DNA of 64,000 bases from Pirellulales bacterium (GTDB lineage: Bacteria > Planctomycetota > Planctomycetia > Pirellulales > JACPPG01). The translations under genes were made by a program, and so were the position numbers. The DNA lies in contig DASZWQ010000022.1 of NCBI GenBank assembly GCA_035546535.1, positions 1 through 64,000 of the forward strand, given 5' to 3'. Under the pieces are notes generated by a model that was not told the DNA's origin, ran no database searches, and worked only from the letters and a program-made list of their open reading frames with translations. Position 1 is the first letter of the stretch, and each line of letters opens with the position of its first letter. Below, piece by piece: positions 51,366 through 63,992 of this stretch.

Positions 51366-54200
51366 TCACCCTGTATTCTTCAGTCCGGAAGCGATGCCGT
51401 TGACGCTTTCCAGGCACGCGGTCAGCAGTTCGCCGTGCGGTTCTTCGCCCGCGCGCAGGCGTTTGAGCAGCACCAACTGAATGAAGCTCAGCGGGTCGAC
51501 GTAAGGATTGCGCCGATCGATCGATCCTTGCAGCACCGGCACATTATCCAACAGGCGCTGCTGGCCGGTGATCTTCAGCACGAAGTCGACCGTGGCGTGA
51601 AATTCGGTTTCGATGCGGCGATAAATGTCGTCGGCCAGTGACTGGTCCGGAACCAGGTCAGCATAGAGTCGGGCGATGGTCAAATCGGCCTTGGCCAGGA
51701 TCATCTGCGTGTTGTCGATCAACGTTCGCCACAGCGGCCAACGTCGATACATGTCCATCAGTTGCCCGACATCCCCGCCGTGATCGAGCAGAAAGTCACC
51801 CACGGCGCTACCGAAGCCGAACCAGCCAGGCAGCGTGTGCCGGCTTTGCATCCAACTGAATACCCAGGGGATAGCGCGCAATTGATCGATGGTCCGCGTC
51901 GTACCGCGGAAGGCCGGCCGCGAGGCGATCTTCAACTGGCTGATCTCGCCAAATGGCGTCGCGTGCTCGAAGTAGGTGAGGAACTCGGGCGTTTCGTAGA
52001 CCAGCTTGCGGTAATGGCGCGAGGCACTGGCGGCCAATCGCTCCATGGCCCAATCCCAACTCGGATCGACTTGTTCTTCTTCGGGAAAGCTGGCGAGCAG
52101 GACGGCGTTTATCAATTGTTCCAGGTGCCGATCCGCGATTGCCGGCCGGCCATAGCGGTCGGCGATCATTTCGCCCTGTTCGGTAATGCGAATCCGACCG
52201 TTCACCGCGCCGCGCGGCTGGGCCAGGATCGCCTGGTTGGCCGGGCCGCCGCCGCGTCCGACCGATCCGCCACGGCCGTGGAAAATCTGGATCGTGACGC
52301 CGGTGCGGCGCATCAACTCGCCCAGGTCGCGGTGAGCCTTGTAGATCGACCAGCACGACTGCAGGAAGCCGGCTTCCTTGCTCGAGTCGGAGTAACCGAG
52401 CATCACTTCCTGGATATTTCCGCGCAGCTCCAAATGACGGCGATAGACCGGCTGGCAGAGCAGTCGCTGCACGAATGGCACCGCGCCGCGCAGCGGATCG
52501 AGCGATTCCAAAAGTGGAACGATCTGTAGCCGACTGATTTCGTCGGCCGGCCGGAACAGCCGCGCCTCGCGCGCGAGCAACAACACTTCCAGCATGTTGC
52601 CAGGCTCGCTCGTGCCGCTGGTGATGTAGGTGTCGATGGCCTCGCTGCACTGCCCTTCGAGGATAGCGGCAATGGTGCGGAAGGTTTGCACGACTTCGCG
52701 CGTCTCGGGCGTGAACGGCAGATCGACGGGAACCAGCGGCCGGTTCTGTGAAAGCTCGCCTTCCAAGAGCTCGAACCGTTCATTCGGCGTGAGCTTCGAG
52801 TAGCGCGGGCAAACGCCGGCCCAATTGAAAATCTCGTCCAAAGCCCGACTGTGTCGCGTGGCGTGCTGCCGGACGTCCAGTGTCAACATGTGCAGCCCGA
52901 AGACGTCGACCTCCCGTGTCAGGTCGCGGACCAGGCCCGCAGCGAGGTGCGAGACGCGCGACACCTGCAGATCGTCGGCAATCAGCGTGAGGTCGGCACG
53001 CAACTCGGCGGGCTCTCGATAGATGCCCGGAGCCGCCGGCGCCGCATCACCGTACCAGTCGGGCGCGTTTTTCTTGAGGTTGTCAAGGGTGCGCTGCAAT
53101 CGGGCGACGATGTAGCGACACTTTTGCCGATACGGCTCCAGATCTCCCGGCCGTCGCGCCTCCGGTAATAGCACCTCGTCAGCCGCAAGCGAGGCGACCA
53201 GCTCGGCGCCGGGCTCGAGAAAATGCCGCGAATGGCTCAGCCGCCGGCCCAGCTCGCGTACCTGTCCCAGGTAATGCTTGAGAATCGTTTCCTGGTGCAG
53301 CCGTACGGCCTCGCGCGTGACTTCGGGAGTAACGTGCGGATTACCGTCACGATCGCCGCCAATCCAGGAGCCGAACCGCAATAGCGGCGGTATGGCTTGC
53401 TTGTCATCGGGGAATGTCCGCTCGAGCGCTTCTTCGACGTCGCGATAAACGCGAGGCACGGTCGCGAAAAGCGTCTCGCTGACCAGGCCTAGTCCATGGC
53501 GGATTTCGTCGAGAACGGTGGGCCGCTCATTGCGCACGATATCGCTGAACCAGCAAGCCTCGACCTCGGCCGTAATTGCCGCGAGGGCCTCGGCACGCTC
53601 GCGAGCGAGTAATTGGCAATACTCCAAACGATCGAGCTGGCCGGCGATCGCGTCGAGCTTTTCCAGGATGGTGCGTCGCCGGGCCTCACTGGGATGCGCC
53701 GTAAACACCGGGCGGATCAGGGCTCGACCGAGAAGCGCCGAAATCTTTTCTGTTGCAAAGCCTCGATCGCGCAGGCGGCACAGCGCCATTTCCACCGATT
53801 CGGGCAGTGGTTGCCCCGGATTCTGTTCGGCCCGATTGCGAAGCGCGCGCACGCGGGCCTGCTGCTCCGTGAGATTGATGAGGTCGAAATACAGGCTGAA
53901 AGCTCGCGTTAGAGTGCGCAAACGGCGCAAGTCGAGCGTCGTCAAGCGATCGCGCAGCGCGCGCGCCGCGTCGACCGAAGGCGAGGCGCGCAATTGCTGG
54001 CCGGCGGTGCGGATTTCGTCCACCAGCCGAAAGGCTTCCTCACCCTCCAGCCGCAGAATCGTTTCGTCGAGCACTTGATCAAGCATGCGCGTGTCAAACT
54101 CCAGGCCCGGTTCGTCCAACAGCACGTCGCCTGGGACTGGCTCCTTGTGCAGGTTGAACCGGACCGCCAATTCCGTTTGGGTAATCAAGGCTTCCGACAT
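51366..54200 (-). CDS. ppc: Phosphoenolpyruvate carboxylase
   Basis: 944 residues. The ATG at 54200 is taken; the frame opens one codon earlier at TTG. PEPC fixes bicarbonate onto PEP to give oxaloacetate, replenishing the citric acid cycle. Seen: FTAHPSEARRRT (catalytic His near 171; the usual TAHPT has Ser), FGSWIGGDRDGNP, FHGRGGSVGRGGGP and the C-terminal end NTG, which is characteristic. Full-length. It starts 15 bases after the pfk stop, so the two genes form an operon; both feed from PEP/fructose phosphates and are divergent from the glycogen phosphorylase gene. Confidence 0.96.
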   Translation of the reverse strand: MSEALITQTELAVRFNLHKEPVPGDVLLDEPGLEFDTRMLDQVLDETILRLEGEEAFRLVDEIRTAGQQLRASPSVDAARALRDRLTTLDLRRLRTLTRAFSLYFDLINLTEQQARVRALRNRAEQNPGQPLPESVEMALCRLRDRGFATEKISALLGRALIRPVFTAHPSEARRRTILEKLDAIAGQLDRLEYCQLLARERAEALAAITAEVEACWFSDIVRNERPTVLDEIRHGLGLVSETLFATVPRVYRDVEEALERTFPDDKQAIPPLLRFGSWIGGDRDGNPHVTPEVTREAVRLHQETILKHYLGQVRELGRRLSHSRHFLEPGAELVASLAADEVLLPEARRPGDLEPYRQKCRYIVARLQRTLDNLKKNAPDWYGDAAPAAPGIYREPAELRADLTLIADDLQVSRVSHLAAGLVRDLTREVDVFGLHMLTLDVRQHATRHSRALDEIFNWAGVCPRYSKLTPNERFELLEGELSQNRPLVPVDLPFTPETREVVQTFRTIAAILEGQCSEAIDTYITSGTSEPGNMLEVLLLAREARLFRPADEISRLQIVPLLESLDPLRGAVPFVQRLLCQPVYRRHLELRGNIQEVMLGYSDSSKEAGFLQSCWSIYKAHRDLGELMRRTGVTIQIFHGRGGSVGRGGGPANQAILAQPRGAVNGRIRITEQGEMIADRYGRPAIADRHLEQLINAVLLASFPEEEQVDPSWDWAMERLAASASRHYRKLVYETPEFLTYFEHATPFGEISQLKIASRPAFRGTTRTIDQLRAIPWVFSWMQSRHTLPGWFGFGSAVGDFLLDHGGDVGQLMDMYRRWPLWRTLIDNTQMILAKADLTIARLYADLVPDQSLADDIYRRIETEFHATVDFVLKITGQQRLLDNVPVLQGSIDRRNPYVDPLSFIQLVLLKRLRAGEEPHGELLTACLESVNGIASGLKNTG

Positions 54201-54215
54201 CAAAACGTCTTCCCG

Positions 54216-55595
54216 TTAGTCGAGGTAACAGATGCGCTTGTTGACGTCGACGTTGACCGAGTGGTAGGGCTCGGCCAGATTGCTACGTCGGAACATCGTC
54301 TGGCGAACGTGTTCCAAGTCGTCCAGGCCGATCGCGTTGTTGAAGATCGGCAGCATGTAGTCGATTCCCATGCGCGACAGGCCCAGTCGTTCCGGGTCGT
54401 AAAAGGAAGCATGGGCCTGGCGGGCGTGAATCACGCCCCAGCGATCGCGGAAATCGTTGCCGTTGATGCCGCTGACGAAAAACCCCTTTTCGCGGTCGTA
54501 CTGCAGAATCGCCACGCCGTTGACCTGCCCTTCGAGCAACAAGTCCAGGGCATGCCCACCTAGCTGCGTACCGTAGAAGGAGTCGAACAGGATCGGCCGG
54601 CCGCCACGCTGCGTGTGGCCGACTTTTCTGGTAAAGATCGCGGCCCGGGCTGATTCGTTGCGCCGTTTGCTGGTGAAATAGCTGTCTCCCATCCGCTCAA
54701 TCAATATCTGCCGCAGCGCTTCGGCCGCGCCGGAAAGAATTTTGTTGCCGGCCGGATCGGTCGAATTGTGTACGGCGCCCAGTTCGCAGCCGTGTTCGTC
54801 GACAATTCCCTCGGCGCACACGATGACGACGTTTTTCTGCAGTTCGTAAAGTTCAATGACCCGTTCGACGACACGCTCAACATTGAGCGGAATCTCGGGA
54901 ATGAGCACCATGTCAGGTTGCCCATAGGCGGCGCCCAGGGCCAGGTAGCCGGAGTGCCGGCCCATGACCTCGACGATGGCGATCCGCCGATGGCTCTCGG
55001 CCGTGGTGCGGATGCGCTGGACGCCGCCGGCCGAGACATATACTGCCGTGGCGAAACCGGGGGTCACATAGTTGATGATGTGGTCCAACTCGAAGCGAAT
55101 ACGCGAAGGAGCGCGCACGTAGCGATATCCGGGCGCAGCTTCACACGGCTCGCGTTGCCATTCGTCGGGCTCGTGCCGATAGTTGAGCCCCAAATCATTG
55201 TCGATCGTCTTGGGCGCGAGCACCGTGGGAAAGAATTCCGACAGGACCTGCATGCCGCTCAATGTGCCGTCGCCCCCAATGCAGATCAGCCCTTCGACGC
55301 CGAGCCGCTTCATTCGGTCGGCGATTTCTTCGATGGTGCCGCGATCGCGTGGGTCGACATAGTCGCGCGATGCGCCAACGATCGTTCCCCCGTAATTGGG
55401 GTTCAACTCGGGGATTGTCGTGAACAGCGGGTTGAGCCGAAGGTGTGGAACGCGCGGATTGAAGAGACTGCTGAAGCCCTTGATGAAACCGAGGACCTCG
55501 ACCTTCAACTGGTTCGCGCGGACCACGGCCCCATAGATCGTGGCGTTCAAGGCCGGAGTATCGCCGCCGGCGGTGAGGATGCCGATACGTTTCAT
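54216..55595 (-). CDS. pfk: 6-phosphofructokinase (G104/K124 type)
   Basis: 459 residues from the ATG at 55595 (the frame opens at 55694). Phosphorylates fructose-6-phosphate in glycolysis. GILTAGGDTPALNA opens the protein; ICIGGDGTLSG and PKTIDNDL carry the catalytic residues, including Asp132. At the two positions used to call the phosphoryl donor, E. coli numbering 104 and 124, it has Gly110 and Lys129: Gly suggests ATP, Lys is the residue typical of PPi-dependent enzymes. Trypanosome ATP enzymes combine the same pair, so ATP is likely but not certain. Longer than E. coli PfkA (320). First gene of the pfk-ppc operon. Confidence 0.9.
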   Translation of the reverse strand: MKRIGILTAGGDTPALNATIYGAVVRANQLKVEVLGFIKGFSSLFNPRVPHLRLNPLFTTIPELNPNYGGTIVGASRDYVDPRDRGTIEEIADRMKRLGVEGLICIGGDGTLSGMQVLSEFFPTVLAPKTIDNDLGLNYRHEPDEWQREPCEAAPGYRYVRAPSRIRFELDHIINYVTPGFATAVYVSAGGVQRIRTTAESHRRIAIVEVMGRHSGYLALGAAYGQPDMVLIPEIPLNVERVVERVIELYELQKNVVIVCAEGIVDEHGCELGAVHNSTDPAGNKILSGAAEALRQILIERMGDSYFTSKRRNESARAAIFTRKVGHTQRGGRPILFDSFYGTQLGGHALDLLLEGQVNGVAILQYDREKGFFVSGINGNDFRDRWGVIHARQAHASFYDPERLGLSRMGIDYMLPIFNNAIGLDDLEHVRQTMFRRSNLAEPYHSVNVDVNKRICYLD

Positions 55596-56058
55596 GCGTT
55601 TCTTTTGAGGGGGGCGACGTCTGCAGGGTGAAATAGCAAAGCCCGTACCATGCCCCCTCGCCTCGCCCAGCGAGGCATGTTCGAGGCAGCCCAAGCCATC
55701 GAAGCCCGAGAATCTGCGGCGCGAGGGTCGAATTCTTCGGTACGGTCGACGGGAACCACCGTCGCGCCATCTCTTTGCACGGTGAAGATTTGTGCGATGA
55801 CTGCCTATGGCTTTGGCACTCGTCGGAAAGGAAGCACGAAGTCGCCAATCTCGCTACGGCCGCACTCCGCCGTCTGTGCCCGCAGCGGATGACTATTTGT
55901 TCGTTGCACGTCTAGCTTTAGGACGACGGAGCAAGGCCTTCGAAGAGCCGGAGCGAAAATGGATTTAATCGCGCGGCATGTAAAGTGCCTGGGGAGACCA
56001 AGGCGCATGGCGCGCCGCATTGCGCCTGATTCCCTTATCCTTCGGGGAAGCATCCACC
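55596..56058. other. Divergent region between pfk-ppc and the phosphorylase
   Basis: 463 bases holding the promoters of two divergent carbon-metabolism units. AT-richer DNA lies near 55960-55985, but no hexamer pair is convincing. No gene seen. Confidence 0.4.
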
Positions 56059-58728
56059 ATGAGCCTGCTCGATCATCCCGCCGTGGATCAAACGGCCGCG
56101 GCCAATCTAGACCCGCTCGCTATCCCCGCTCTTAGTCAACTTGCACCCGGCGTTGGCGATCCGGCGGGCACGCTGAGTAACGTCGTGCGGCTGATTCAGG
56201 AGCACTTTCAGACTGACGTTTGCTCGATTTACCTGATCAAGCCCGACCGGGCCAACCTGGTGCTCGCCGCCACCGTGGGCCTGCGGCCCGAGAGCGTGGG
56301 CCGAGTGTCGATGAAATTACACGAGGGGCTGACCGGGCTGGCGGCCGAGCAACTGCGGCCGATCGTCGTTGACGATGCGCCGCGCCACCCGAGATTCAAG
56401 TACTTCGCCGAGGCGGGCGAGGAGCCTTACCGTTCGTTCGTCGGGGTGCCGCTCTTGGACCAGGGGGTCATCCAAGGGGTGCTCGTGGTACAGACGCGCG
56501 AGCCGCGCAGTTTTTCGCGCGAGGAAACCTCGATGATGGTTGTGGCGGCCAACCAGGTCGCGCCGATCGTCAGCGAAGCGCGGACGCTCGAACAGTTTAT
56601 CGCGCCGGCGTACGAGCGGATTTGGGCCTTGGCCCGTAACCTGTGGTGGAGCTGGGACCCGGTCGCCGAATCGCTCTTTCGCGAGCTCGACCCGGTACGA
56701 TGGCGCGAGCTGGATCACAATCCGATCGCGCTATTGAGCGAGATCTCGATGGAGCAGCTCGAAGAGCGTTCGCGCCGGCACATGCTGCACAGCAGCCTGA
56801 ACTATACCTATCGCCGTTTTCAGGAATACGTGAAGTCGGACGAAACGTGGGGCGCGGCCCATGCCGGCGTGTTGCGGGCGCGGCCGGTCGTCTATTTTTC
56901 CGCCGAGTTCGGTCTGCACGAGTCGCTGCCGATTTACTCCGGCGGCCTGGGCATCCTGGCTGGCGATCATTTCAAAAGTGCGAGCGACCTGGGCGTACCT
57001 TTGGTCGGCATGGGTTTGTTCTACGATCAGGGCTATTTCCGCCAGCACCTCACGACCGAAGGTTGGCAGAGCGAAGATTACTTGGAAGTCGACGTCAAAA
57101 AACTGCCCATGGAACTTGCGCTGGGTCGTGACCAACGTCCGATTACCGTGACCATGGAAACGCGCACCGGGCAGCTGTACGCACGCGTGTGGCGGGTCAC
57201 GGTGGGGCGCAATACGTTGTACTTGCTCGATTCGGACGTCGACGGCAACGCGCCCGAGGATCGCGACCTGACCGCCCGTCTTTACGGTGGCGACCAGCGC
57301 GTACGGATTCGCCAGGAACTGTTGCTGGGTGTTGGCGGTGTGCGCGCCTTGGAAGCGCTGGGCATCGTGCCCGGCGTTTTGCACCTCAACGAGGGGCACA
57401 GTGCTTTCGCTTGTCTGGAAATGGTCCGCCAGCGCATGCAGCGCGAAGGGATCGCCTTCGACGAAGCTCGCCGCCGCGTCGCTCGGCAGGTGGTGTTTAC
57501 TACGCACACACCGGTGCCGGCCGGGCATGACCGCTTTTCCGACGCGCTGATCGAAGAGCATCTTGGCCCGCTTCGCGACGGCTTGGGAATCACCTTCGAA
57601 GACCTGATGTCGCAAGGACGCGTTAACGTCCACAACCCGGAAGAAGATTTCTGCATGACGGTGCTAGCGCTCAAGAACTCGCGCCGCGCCAATGCCGTTG
57701 CTTCGCTGCACGGAGACGTCAGCCGGGCCATGTGGCAATGCCTCTATCCTGGCCGCACGGAAGACGAAGTCCCGATTGATCACATCACGAACGGTATCCA
57801 CGTCCCCAGTTGGCTGGCGCCGCAGATGCGGCAACTGTTCGACCGGCACCTGGGGCCCGATTGGATCCGTCGCAGCAGCGATCCCACGCTGTGGGACAAG
57901 ATCCCCTCGATCGACAATGGCGAGTTGTGGGAAACACACCAGGTGCTCAAGAGCGAGCTGATCAGCTTTGTTCGCGCGAGGGCCATGCGCCAGGCTGAGC
58001 AGCGCGGGGAGCCACGCGAGGTGATTCAGCGGCTCGGACGTGCGCTCAGTCCCGATGCGTTGACGATCGGCTTTGCCCGCCGTTTCGCCACTTACAAGCG
58101 GGCGAATCTGCTGTTCCAAGACTTGGAGCAGATCGCCTCGTTGATCAACGATCCGCAACTGCCCGTGCAAGTGATCTTCGCCGGCAAGGCGCATCCGCGT
58201 GATGTGCCGGGCAAGGAAGTGCTGCAAGAGATTGCCCGTTTTGCGAGATCGCCGCAGTTCTTCGGAAAGATCGTGTTCGTCGAGAACTACGACATCGACG
58301 TGGGCGAACACCTGGTGCAAGGCGTCGACCTGTGGCTCAATACGCCGCGCCGGCCGCTCGAGGCCTCGGGAACAAGCGGCATGAAAGTCGTTCTTAACGG
58401 TGGCTTGAATCTATCGGTACTCGATGGCTGGTGGGCCGAGGCCTACGACGGCACGAACGGTTTTGCCGTCGGCACGGGCGACACGCACGTGCTCACCGAC
58501 GTACACGACCGCCTGGACGCCGGCTCGCTGTATCGAGTCTTGGCGGAGCAAGTGATTCCGCTGTTCTACGATCGCGATCAGGACGGCTTGCCGTTGGCGT
58601 GGATCAAACGCATGAAGGCGGCCATTCGCACACTTGGCTGGCGCTTCAATGCCGATCGCATGGTGCGCGATTACGTCGAGAAGTGCTACATCCCCGCGGC
58701 CGGCGGACGATCAAGTGGCGTGCGGTAA
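56059..58728 (+). CDS. Alpha-glucan (glycogen) phosphorylase with N-terminal GAF domain
   Basis: 889 residues from the ATG at 56059, with GGGGAAG upstream. Residues about 38-175 form a GAF domain closely like that of PtsP: TDVCSIYLI, LVLAATVGL, EGLTGLAAE, DAPRHPRFKYF and a GVPLLDQGVIQGVLVVQ closing strand. From about 180 follows a GT35 phosphorylase of the long bacterial/archaeal type: YFSAEFGLHESLPIYSGGLG, LNEGHSAF, THTPVPAGHDRF and SGTSGMKVVLNGGLN with the PLP lysine, Lys776. It releases glucose-1-phosphate from glycogen. The GAF fusion suggests direct metabolite control. Divergent from pfk-ppc. Confidence 0.93.
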   Translation: MSLLDHPAVDQTAAANLDPLAIPALSQLAPGVGDPAGTLSNVVRLIQEHFQTDVCSIYLIKPDRANLVLAATVGLRPESVGRVSMKLHEGLTGLAAEQLRPIVVDDAPRHPRFKYFAEAGEEPYRSFVGVPLLDQGVIQGVLVVQTREPRSFSREETSMMVVAANQVAPIVSEARTLEQFIAPAYERIWALARNLWWSWDPVAESLFRELDPVRWRELDHNPIALLSEISMEQLEERSRRHMLHSSLNYTYRRFQEYVKSDETWGAAHAGVLRARPVVYFSAEFGLHESLPIYSGGLGILAGDHFKSASDLGVPLVGMGLFYDQGYFRQHLTTEGWQSEDYLEVDVKKLPMELALGRDQRPITVTMETRTGQLYARVWRVTVGRNTLYLLDSDVDGNAPEDRDLTARLYGGDQRVRIRQELLLGVGGVRALEALGIVPGVLHLNEGHSAFACLEMVRQRMQREGIAFDEARRRVARQVVFTTHTPVPAGHDRFSDALIEEHLGPLRDGLGITFEDLMSQGRVNVHNPEEDFCMTVLALKNSRRANAVASLHGDVSRAMWQCLYPGRTEDEVPIDHITNGIHVPSWLAPQMRQLFDRHLGPDWIRRSSDPTLWDKIPSIDNGELWETHQVLKSELISFVRARAMRQAEQRGEPREVIQRLGRALSPDALTIGFARRFATYKRANLLFQDLEQIASLINDPQLPVQVIFAGKAHPRDVPGKEVLQEIARFARSPQFFGKIVFVENYDIDVGEHLVQGVDLWLNTPRRPLEASGTSGMKVVLNGGLNLSVLDGWWAEAYDGTNGFAVGTGDTHVLTDVHDRLDAGSLYRVLAEQVIPLFYDRDQDGLPLAWIKRMKAAIRTLGWRFNADRMVRDYVEKCYIPAAGGRSSGVR

Positions 58729-59285
58729 CTCTTGTTCGGCCGCCAGTGATTTACGATCGCGATTTCCACTTACTCGCGCTGCGAAGGCCCTTGCTGGCGC
58801 TACCTGGTCCGATTCTCCGACATCCCTGCGCATTCAGTGCGCAGGCGCGCAATTTTCTGCCCATTTTTTTTACTAATGCCGTTTGGGCGTTCCGTTAGCC
58901 TCGTGTTTGATTCGCTACCTAAAGATTCGGGCTGCCTGGAAATCTACATGTGAAGTGGGGTAAATACGTGAAGACCTCGTTTGCTGTCGCGTTGCCTGCG
59001 TGTCGAAAAAATCGCCGGGACAGGCATTTATAACTCCTGTCAGTCCGCTGGGGTTTTCGCTCCCTCCCGATCCAGTTGTTCCAAAAGTAGGGTTTCTAAT
59101 GGAGGCGGGCGCGCCAAATCCGCACATTCACTATGGGGCTCTTGCGGTTTTTTCGCCTCTCATGCACTCTAGGGTGAACACAGGGTCCAACGGGATGGAT
59201 CCTGGCCGGATTTCCTTGCTGGTTCGCTAGACCGGCGGCGATACGGCTGCGTTAGCAAGTCACGCACATCGAACGGAGAATGCCA
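58729..59285. other. Intergenic region after the phosphorylase
   Basis: 557 bases. It starts with the terminator-like hairpin at 58825-58845 and shows no supported gene beyond it. The last part should hold the promoter of the choice-of-anchor-A gene. Confidence 0.4.
58825..58845 (+). terminator. Probable terminator of the phosphorylase gene
   Basis: CCTGCGCA (58825-58832), loop TTCAG, TGCGCAGG (58838-58845), then ATTTTC and a run of eight Ts about 20 bases on. It lies about 100 bases after the stop codon. The distance between stem and main T-run makes it less than ideal. Confidence 0.5.
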
Positions 59286-60350
59286 GTGAATTGTTCCCTC
59301 CGAGGCACCCTTGTTGCCTCATCCTGCCTCGTTCTTTCTCTCCTGCTCGGCGAGCAGATGGCCCTCGCTGGCCCTCTGGCGCTGGGTCCTGCCGGCGATT
59401 TCAACATCTTTGTGTTCGGTGACGACACTCAAGGTAATAGCGATACCGAGGGCCGCGTGGCCGTCGGCGGGAATGCCTTTTTCAGCGGCTCCGGCTGGAC
59501 CATCGGTAGCGCAATTTCCAGCAGCACGACGAATCTGATCGTCGGCGGCAGCCTCTCGAACCAGTTCAACACGGTCACCGGTAGCGTGCTGGTAAACGGA
59601 AACGTCACGTGGCCCGGGCCGTCGATCCATGGCTCGCTCTTTGTGAACGGGAACGCCAACTTCGGCAACAGCGGTGGTCAAATCAACGGCACAGTCGACG
59701 TGGTAGGCACGTACACGAAGCCGGCGAACGGTTTCCCGCCCAATCAGAGTCCGCCCACCGTCACGCCGCTTCCTTTCAACTTTGCGGCGGTGAAGACCTC
59801 GTTACAGGGCGAATCGACTTACCTGGCCAGTCTCACGCCGAATGGCACGACGACGGTCAACTTTGGTGCCCTGGCGCTCACCGCGACCGGTCCGACGAAC
59901 AGCTTTTATGTCTTCGACGTCACGGGCGCGCAGATGGCGGCAGCGGCAAGCCACGGACTGAGCATCACGGCTCCTTCTGGTTCGACGGTCGTTGTGAATG
60001 TCGACGGCACAAGCGATTCCATGACGAGCATGGGCATCTCGCTCAACGGCGTCGATAACCAGCACGTGCTGTACAACTTTTCGCAAGCGACCAGCTTGAC
60101 CGTTAATCAGATTGGTATCGAAGGGACGATTCTGGCCCCCAATGCCAACGTGAATTTTGCCGGTGGCCAAATCAACGGCAGCTTGATCGCGCAGAGCGTT
60201 ACCGGCCAGGGTGAGAGCCATAATCACCTGTTCATCGGCAACCTGCCGACGAACCCGATTCCCGAGCCCTCGACCTTCGTGCTGGCTGCGTGCGGCCTGG
60301 CGGCCTTCGCGGGCACGCGTGCGTATCGTGCGCGTCGCCTGGGCTCCTAA
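59286..60350 (+). CDS. Choice-of-anchor-A protein with PEP-CTERM anchor
   Basis: 354 residues from a GTG at 59286, which has GGAG seven bases upstream; the ATG at 59280 sits only one base from that GGAG and is less likely. Signal peptide about 1-28 (ends MALAG). The body matches the choice-of-anchor-A domain (FNIFVFGDD, EGRVAVGGNAFF, NLIVGGSL, GTILAPNANVNF). The end is NPIPEPSTFVLAAC, a membrane helix and RAYRARRLGS, the PEP-CTERM tail. Likely an exported surface protein sorted by exosortase. Followed by a strong terminator. Confidence 0.85.
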   Translation: MNCSLRGTLVASSCLVLSLLLGEQMALAGPLALGPAGDFNIFVFGDDTQGNSDTEGRVAVGGNAFFSGSGWTIGSAISSSTTNLIVGGSLSNQFNTVTGSVLVNGNVTWPGPSIHGSLFVNGNANFGNSGGQINGTVDVVGTYTKPANGFPPNQSPPTVTPLPFNFAAVKTSLQGESTYLASLTPNGTTTVNFGALALTATGPTNSFYVFDVTGAQMAAAASHGLSITAPSGSTVVVNVDGTSDSMTSMGISLNGVDNQHVLYNFSQATSLTVNQIGIEGTILAPNANVNFAGGQINGSLIAQSVTGQGESHNHLFIGNLPTNPIPEPSTFVLAACGLAAFAGTRAYRARRLGS

Positions 60351-62693: not shown

Positions 62694-63992
62694 ATGCTCG
62701 CCGAGCAAGCGAAAAAACTGGGTATCAAGTATTTTCTCGTGTCGTTTTCGGACCTCTTCGGTACGCAGCGGGCCAAGCTCGTACCCGCCGCCGCGATCGA
62801 TGACGTCTGCAAGACAGGGGCCGGGTTCGCCGGCTTTGCCACCTGGCTCGACATGACACCGGCCGATCCCGACATTTTCGCCGTGCCGGCGGTGGAAAGT
62901 CTCACGCAACTTCCTTGGAAGCCAGAGATCGGCTGGTTGGCCGCCGACTTGTACGTGAACGGCACGCCGCTCGCGCAAGCACCGCGCAACGTGCTCAAAC
63001 GATCGCTAGCACGACTTGACGAGCAAGGGTACGAATTGCGGACGGGCGTCGAGTGTGAGTTCTTCGTGCTCGCGGCCGATGATCATGCGATAGCCGACCC
63101 GCGCGATGCGCAGCAAAAGCCCTGCTACGACCAGCAATCCTTGGTGCGCCAGTACGATCTGATTGCCGAAATCTGCGATTGCCTGCTCGAACTCGGCTGG
63201 CAACCCTATCAAAACGACCACGAAGATGCGAGCGGACAGTTCGAGATCAACTGGGCCTACGCTCCGGCGCTTGTCACGGCCGATCGGCAAGCGTTCTTCA
63301 AGTACCTCGTGAAATCGCTCGCCGAACGTCGTGGACTGCGTGCCACGTTCATGCCCAAGCCGTTCGATCATCTGACGGGTAACGGTTGCCACATGCATCT
63401 GTCGTTGTGGAACCGCACTCAAGGGACGAATCTGTTCCATGACGCGCATGACGAAATGGGACTCTCGCCGCTGGCCTATGCCTTCATTGGCGGGATGCTG
63501 CACTCTGCTGATGCCGTGTGCGCGCTGACGAACCCGACGGTGAACTCCTATCGCCGCATCAATGCCCCGGTCACAAGCTCCGGTGCCACATGGTCGCCGA
63601 ACGTGATTAGCTACGCCGGCAACAATCGGACGCACATGATCCGCATTCCCGCGCCAGGCCGCATCGAGTTGCGCCTGCCCGACGGTTCGGCAAATCCGTA
63701 CCTCATGGCGGCGGCGGTGGCGGAAGCGGGCCGCGAGGGGATCGCCGCACGGCGCAACCCCGGGCCTGTGCTCGACGCCAACATTTATCGCGACGCCGCG
63801 GCGGTCACGTCGTTGCGCACACTGCCCGACAATCTGCTCGACGCGTTGCGGGCCTTGGAGTCCAATACGGTGCTGCGCGAAGGGCTCGGGGCGACGTTCA
63901 CCGACTCGTACCTGAAGCTGAAACGTGCCGAATGGCGCGATTACGCTCGCTTCGTGTCGCCGTGGGAACGCCAGCACACGCTCGACTGCTGA
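62694..63992 (+). CDS. glnT: Type III glutamine synthetase-like enzyme (GlnT / gamma-glutamylmethylamide synthetase type)
   Basis: 432 residues; ATG at 62694 with AAGG upstream. It belongs to the short GS group called type III glutamate-ammonia ligase: FSDLFGTQRAKLVPA and GAGFAGFATWLDMTPADPD near the start, VECEFFV (metal Glu), NDHEDASGQFEINWAYA, GNGCHMHLSLW, and RIPAPGRIELRLPDGSANPYL at the end. Some close members make gamma-glutamylmethylamide from methylamine rather than glutamine, so the substrate is open. No classical glnA, PII partner or methylamine genes adjoin it in this window. Confidence 0.85.
   Translation: MLAEQAKKLGIKYFLVSFSDLFGTQRAKLVPAAAIDDVCKTGAGFAGFATWLDMTPADPDIFAVPAVESLTQLPWKPEIGWLAADLYVNGTPLAQAPRNVLKRSLARLDEQGYELRTGVECEFFVLAADDHAIADPRDAQQKPCYDQQSLVRQYDLIAEICDCLLELGWQPYQNDHEDASGQFEINWAYAPALVTADRQAFFKYLVKSLAERRGLRATFMPKPFDHLTGNGCHMHLSLWNRTQGTNLFHDAHDEMGLSPLAYAFIGGMLHSADAVCALTNPTVNSYRRINAPVTSSGATWSPNVISYAGNNRTHMIRIPAPGRIELRLPDGSANPYLMAAAVAEAGREGIAARRNPGPVLDANIYRDAAAVTSLRTLPDNLLDALRALESNTVLREGLGATFTDSYLKLKRAEWRDYARFVSPWERQHTLDC

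Follow-up and report, generated by a model that had tools for sequence, protein, structure and literature searches.

A PtsP-type GAF domain fused to an alpha-glucan phosphorylase in Planctomycetota and Acidobacteriota, a possible direct link between nitrogen status and glycogen breakdown

Background

What is known of how bacteria match the use of glycogen to their nitrogen supply mostly concerns transcription or partner proteins. A gene in a 64,000-nucleotide stretch of DNA from a Pirellulales bacterium (hereafter the window), predicted to encode a GAF domain like that of the nitrogen-phosphotransferase enzyme PtsP joined to a glycogen phosphorylase, raises the question of whether such coupling may reside within a single polypeptide, and of where its sensor came from. 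The original prediction held that phosphorylases are usually regulated by phosphorylation, by nucleotides or, in bacteria, not at all. This list is incomplete: a partner protein, HPr of the phosphotransferase system (PTS), controls GlgP of E. coli (PMC11046441), and PDB entries of 2026 show the same enzyme with AMP.

Architecture of the fused gene

The gene is a single unbroken open reading frame on the forward strand, running from the ATG at 56059 to the stop at 58728 (889 amino acids). Its features and those of its divergent neighbours are:

51366..54203, - strand, PEP carboxylase gene, second divergent neighbour (Pfam PEPcase, 5.5e-302)
54216..55595, - strand, 6-phosphofructokinase family gene, divergent neighbour (Pfam PFK, 2.9e-59)
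56044..56050, + strand, probable ribosome-binding site GGGGAAG, G-rich, before ATG 56059 (sequence and conservation in congeners)
56059..58728, + strand, GAF-DUF3417-alpha-glucan phosphorylase fusion gene (open reading frame, translation, Pfam, NCBIfam)
56164..56583, + strand, PtsP-type GAF domain, residues 36-175 (Pfam, PtsP profile, structural matches to PtsP GAF domains 3ci6 and 3trc, tree)
56614..56928, + strand, DUF3417 domain, residues 186-290 (Pfam, 3.7e-27)
56887..58692, + strand, TIGR02094 alpha-glucan phosphorylase domain, residues 277-878 (NCBIfam, 825 bits)
58384..58386, + strand, codon of the PLP lysine, Lys776 (invariant column in 34 fused proteins; role from the GT35 family)

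Domain searches with Pfam and NCBIfam agree with the original prediction of a GAF domain fused to a full GT35 phosphorylase with its PLP lysine at Lys776; the reading frame had been placed correctly, as had the limits of the GAF domain (about 38-175, compared with 36-175 here). The Pfam match to the GAF domain covers residues 36-168 (1.1e-18), and the TIGR02094 match (825 bits against a cut-off of 191.7) spans model positions 1-599 of 600, accompanied by a Pfam Phosphorylase match of 3e-31. Lys776 lies in the motif EASGTSGMK, which takes the form EASGTSGxK, with the lysine invariant, in 34 fused proteins. By sequence, the phosphorylase is of the short DUF3417/TIGR02094 type, not the TIGR02093 type of E. 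coli and animals; relatives of the short type are found in archaea and Segatella, and the nearest solved structure is 9l6i/20yr, the glycogen phosphorylase of Segatella copri. From its family membership, the fused protein is predicted to phosphorolyse glycogen or maltodextrin. Other DUF3417/TIGR02094 enzymes, such as the archaeal maltodextrin phosphorylase, the S. copri enzyme and an unfused paralogue encoded in the host genome itself (C201, 62% identity), share DUF3417 and the full catalytic domain with its PLP lysine, but begin at DUF3417 or close to it and lack a GAF domain. Only the GAF domain, DUF3417 and the phosphorylase were detected with Pfam in the fused protein, the enzyme I domains PF05524, PF00391 and PF02896 being absent after the GAF domain.

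Three congeners preserve both the ATG at 56059 and the G-rich site ahead of it, but not the sequence further upstream. Between congeners, dN/dS is 0.03-0.05 for the GAF domain and 0.04-0.05 for the catalytic part, and over 63 fused proteins near-invariant positions make up 25% of the GAF domain, 24% of DUF3417 and 35% of the catalytic part. A translation start downstream of the GAF domain is ruled out by the conserved ATG and the GAF dN/dS, placing the start ahead of the domain. Degradation of the GAF domain is ruled out by its conserved residues and motifs and its confidently predicted fold: predicted in isolation, it has the usual order of GAF elements with pLDDT above 90 across nearly all of its length, and the core residues of PtsP GAF domains are retained, in keeping with the intact domain originally described. 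The full-length model (mean pLDDT 72, worst in the C-terminal half) is too uncertain to place the GAF domain on the enzyme. Given the conserved start, the equal purifying selection and the recurrence of the same architecture in dozens of genomes, the fusion is neither a chance event nor a start-codon artefact; the same recurrence rules out an oddity of one genome.

Origin of the GAF domain

The PtsP model NF008283 (NCBIfam) matches only the GAF part of the fused protein (2e-34 to 3.3e-34), and the NifA profile matches this part more weakly (1.6e-10 to 3.4e-9). In a maximum-likelihood tree that included PtsP GAF domains from planctomycetes, Acinetobacter and Coxiella, and in which free-standing and ANTAR-type GAF domains of Acidobacteriota formed the outgroup, 27 fused GAF domains form one clade (support 100/99.9) nested within those of PtsP. 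The best structural matches are likewise the PtsP GAF domains 3ci6 (Z 23.6) and 3trc (Z 22.7), the next score being 19.1. Identity is 40% to the GAF domain of E. coli PtsP across 129 residues (52-180), and reaches 51% among those of planctomycete PtsP proteins, of which L197 is the closest found. Profile, tree and fold thus all agree with the PtsP-like character originally claimed for the domain, which, as judged from sequence and fold, is derived from PtsP.

Twenty-three GAF positions are conserved in both of the sets compared (59 fused proteins and 17 PtsP GAF domains). The fused GAF domains have drifted in part from the PtsP core at positions 47, 92, 107, 117, 122 and 166, and have invariant residues of their own (R64, A70, E97, H110 and Q139), some of which may line the GAF pocket. 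PtsP (EI-Ntr) resembles the fused protein in having an N-terminal GAF domain of the same clade, with the same core motifs, ahead of a catalytic part, but the fused protein has neither enzyme I domains nor phosphohistidine chemistry, and its output is a phosphorylase. The GAF domain of NifA, a 2-oxoglutarate sensor, shares the GAF fold and a weaker sequence similarity, but is more distant than PtsP in both sequence and fold, and the output of NifA is that of a sigma-54 activator. The signatures PRFK and EAFLS(A/V)PV of the PtsP-type GAF domain also occur in free-standing GAF proteins of Acidobacteriota of about 200 amino acids (L224 and L225) and in Acidobacteriota GAF proteins with an ANTAR-like tail (L227 and L228).

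Distribution and evolutionary history

The fusion is present in four of the five genomes of the window's genus and in 14 of 246 genomes of its order, and in an even draw of 199 Planctomycetota genomes it was found only in the window's own. Among sampled Acidobacteriota, five of 297 genomes carry it. A scan of genome collections identified about 40 carriers in Acidobacteriota and six in Planctomycetota (60-71% identity), which with few exceptions are metagenome assemblies. The survey of planctomycetes proposed with the original prediction therefore shows a patchy presence there, and extends the fusion to one clade of Acidobacteriota. A search of plasmids for the fusion returned only unfused relatives of less than 60% identity.

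In phosphorylase trees, the fused proteins emerge among unfused planctomycete enzymes, and those of Acidobacteriota form one subclade (support 100). When 27 fused phosphorylases were constrained to one clade, the likelihood was above that of the free tree (p-AU 0.627), so that a single origin is not rejected; one long-branched sequence, L118, falls outside the fused group in the free phosphorylase trees and inside it in the GAF tree. On these trees the fusion looks to have had a single origin. Its patchy spread in Planctomycetota and its restriction to one clade of Acidobacteriota suggest transfer between the phyla, and we infer the direction to have been from planctomycetes, where the fusion may have been born, to Acidobacteriota.

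A phosphorylase adjoining the fused clade (L057, genome G261) has an unrelated N-terminus in place of the GAF domain: it has lost the domain, or else is the closest unfused relative. The fusion, with an adjacent pfk gene, is also carried by a contig labelled as a Bifidobacterium breve metagenome-assembled genome (L099), which is probably misbinned because it groups with planctomycete and Acidobacteriota sequences.

Gene neighbourhood

The gene map and Pfam place the fused gene divergently from the phosphofructokinase (pfk) and PEP carboxylase (ppc) genes, as had been described. The pfk gene is kept beside the fused gene in the window's genus and is found beside fused genes elsewhere, and in about nine distinct loci, a minority of carriers, ppc or pfk adjoins the fused gene. 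The arrangement is divergent in the window's genus, L234 and L108; ppc lies on the same strand 20-30 bp downstream of the fused gene in L072 and L073, and is convergent with it in L075; in L085 pfk follows the fused gene at about 100 bp, and in L099 it precedes it by 36 bp. Neither gene was found beside any of 30 unfused genes (412 kb of surrounding sequence), a difference with a nominal Fisher p of 0.023 that is indicative only, because the loci are related and not independent. The neighbouring ppc genes belong to different subfamilies (35-55% identity to that of the window), and so have probably been joined to the fused gene more than once. Phosphofructokinase and PEP carboxylase carry glycogen carbon to oxaloacetate, the point of entry into nitrogen assimilation, and the linkage may reflect a functional connection with this flow.

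The neighbourhoods examined showed no conserved glycogen operon at the fused gene. Four kilobases downstream of it in the window, a gene at 62694-63989 (+) encodes a type III glutamate-ammonia ligase (glutamine synthetase; TIGR03105, 643 bits), a proximity kept in the window's genus only. Near the fused gene in L078, L103, L104, L117, L120 and L237, which span both phyla, lies a recurrent group of genes for circularly permuted ATP-grasp, Alpha-E and transglutaminase-like proteins; none of 30 unfused phosphorylase genes has this group nearby. The next gene downstream in the window (59280-60350, +) encodes a probably exported protein that has an ice-binding-like adhesive domain and a weak PEP-CTERM tail. 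The match of the phosphofructokinase (54216-55595, -) to its families is split in two, with additional sequence at about residues 137-175.

Proposed regulation and alternatives

The GAF domain of E. coli PtsP is needed for binding of glutamine, which inhibits, and of 2-oxoglutarate, which stimulates, and in Rhizobium, Sinorhizobium and Caulobacter PtsP is reported to be regulated by glutamine (PMC13104625; PMC4848567). By analogy we infer the ligand, the gating and the direction of control in the fused protein, and assign a probability of about 0.5 to the reading that a nitrogen/carbon signal, probably one or both of these metabolites, gates the phosphorylase allosterically. In this reading, the simplest one, the ligand-binding GAF domain of PtsP (the nitrogen-PTS enzyme I), joined once to an alpha-glucan phosphorylase, would serve as an allosteric switch: its pocket would bind a small metabolite indicative of nitrogen/carbon balance, most probably the glutamine and/or 2-oxoglutarate bound by PtsP. 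The signal would pass along a continuous helical connection (helices 154-176 and 184-198) from the GAF domain into DUF3417 and alter phosphorolysis. Nitrogen sufficiency (high glutamine, low 2-oxoglutarate) would favour release of glucose-1-phosphate, which by way of phosphofructokinase, PEP and PEP carboxylase would yield carbon skeletons for nitrogen assimilation, while the unfused paralogue would supply ungated glycogen breakdown. In favour of this explanation stand the PtsP ancestry and retained core of the GAF domain, its purifying selection, the recurrent ppc/pfk linkage and the upkeep of the domain in hosts that have no GAF-bearing enzyme I. Counting against it, the linkage is confined to a minority of carriers, GAF domains shift easily in ligand specificity, and to our knowledge ligand binding by PtsP has been tested in Proteobacteria only. 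Some PtsP phenotypes of Pseudomonas aeruginosa, moreover, are unaltered by deletion of the PtsP GAF domain (PMC12369347).

It is possible, if somewhat unlikely, that the GAF domain is a switch with a changed ligand, such as a nucleotide (AMP, a cyclic form or some other), a sugar phosphate, an amino acid or a redox signal, in which case glycogen breakdown would track the energy or carbon state of the cell instead of nitrogen. GAF domains as a class bind a wide range of ligands; after PtsP, the next structural matches are free-methionine sulfoxide reductases and a GAF domain with bound cAMP (5w10); structures of E. coli GlgP with AMP exist (2026 PDB entries); and R64, A70 and Q139 are invariants particular to the fused proteins. 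Against this, PtsP GAF domains lie far nearer than any cyclic-nucleotide GAF domain by sequence, tree and fold alike, and the fused domains keep the PtsP core.

The prospect that the GAF domain is mainly a module for dimerisation or targeting, setting the oligomeric state or tethering the enzyme with no control by a ligand, is distinctly poorer. GAF domains often dimerise through flanking helices, here predicted at residues 35-50 and 154-176, and oligomeric state often governs phosphorylase activity, but the ligand-loop motifs EGLxGL, HPRFKYF and GVPL are conserved in addition to the helices, and closely related unfused paralogues manage without a GAF domain.

A relation to the PTS itself was also considered. 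The host encodes an hpf-ptsN-ptsH-ptsI regulatory PTS module (contig C59; L229 4292-7716) with an enzyme I that has no GAF domain, and a second enzyme I that likewise has none, in agreement with the GAF-less EI-R group of enzyme I described for planctomycetes (PMC2405797). No further strongly PtsP-like GAF domain was found in the host genome, the best other being 26% identical. Enzyme I is absent from all eight Acidobacteriota carriers searched, and EIIA of the ptsN type from seven of the eight. These absences, together with the lack of a GAF domain in the host's enzymes I, rule out retention of the fused GAF domain as a component of a PTS chain; the predicted PtsP-type sensor is one that acts here apart from phosphotransfer and the nitrogen PTS. 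The host module would accommodate a GAF domain that docks HPr or EIIA and places the enzyme under control of PTS phosphorylation, much as E. coli GlgP is under that of HPr (PMC11046441), yet this is very improbable when the GAF domain is still kept in carriers without enzyme I and, in seven of eight, without EIIA. A GAF domain that is a passive passenger, or untranslated, can be dismissed, as no point was found in its favour and it is contradicted by the dN/dS of 0.03-0.05, conservation across two phyla and the conserved start ATG.

Conclusions

Both halves of the protein are known; the combination is apparently new, no description of a GAF-phosphorylase fusion having been found among the open-access papers searched, and the architecture may stand in protein databases as uncharacterised. 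A close parallel, E. coli GlgP with HPr, also ties a GT35 phosphorylase to a PTS component, but GlgP is of the TIGR02093 subfamily and the PTS protein binds it externally, whereas the fused protein has a PTS sensor domain within its own chain. Tentatively, and with a little less confidence than in the gating alone, we propose that a nitrogen/carbon sensor of PtsP moved once onto a glycogen phosphorylase, where it would read glutamine and 2-oxoglutarate directly, was passed between Planctomycetota and Acidobacteriota, and works without a GAF-bearing enzyme I or any enzyme I, so that release of a carbon store would be coupled to nitrogen status in one polypeptide. If so, a one-protein link from a nitrogen-status sensor to glycogen phosphorolysis would constitute a direct allosteric mechanism, testable because cultured carriers exist (Paracidobacterium acidisoli and Occallatibacter savannae), and the PtsP sensor would prove to be portable and functional without phosphotransfer. 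In the soil bacteria that carry the fusion, nitrogen status may directly govern the release of stored carbon.
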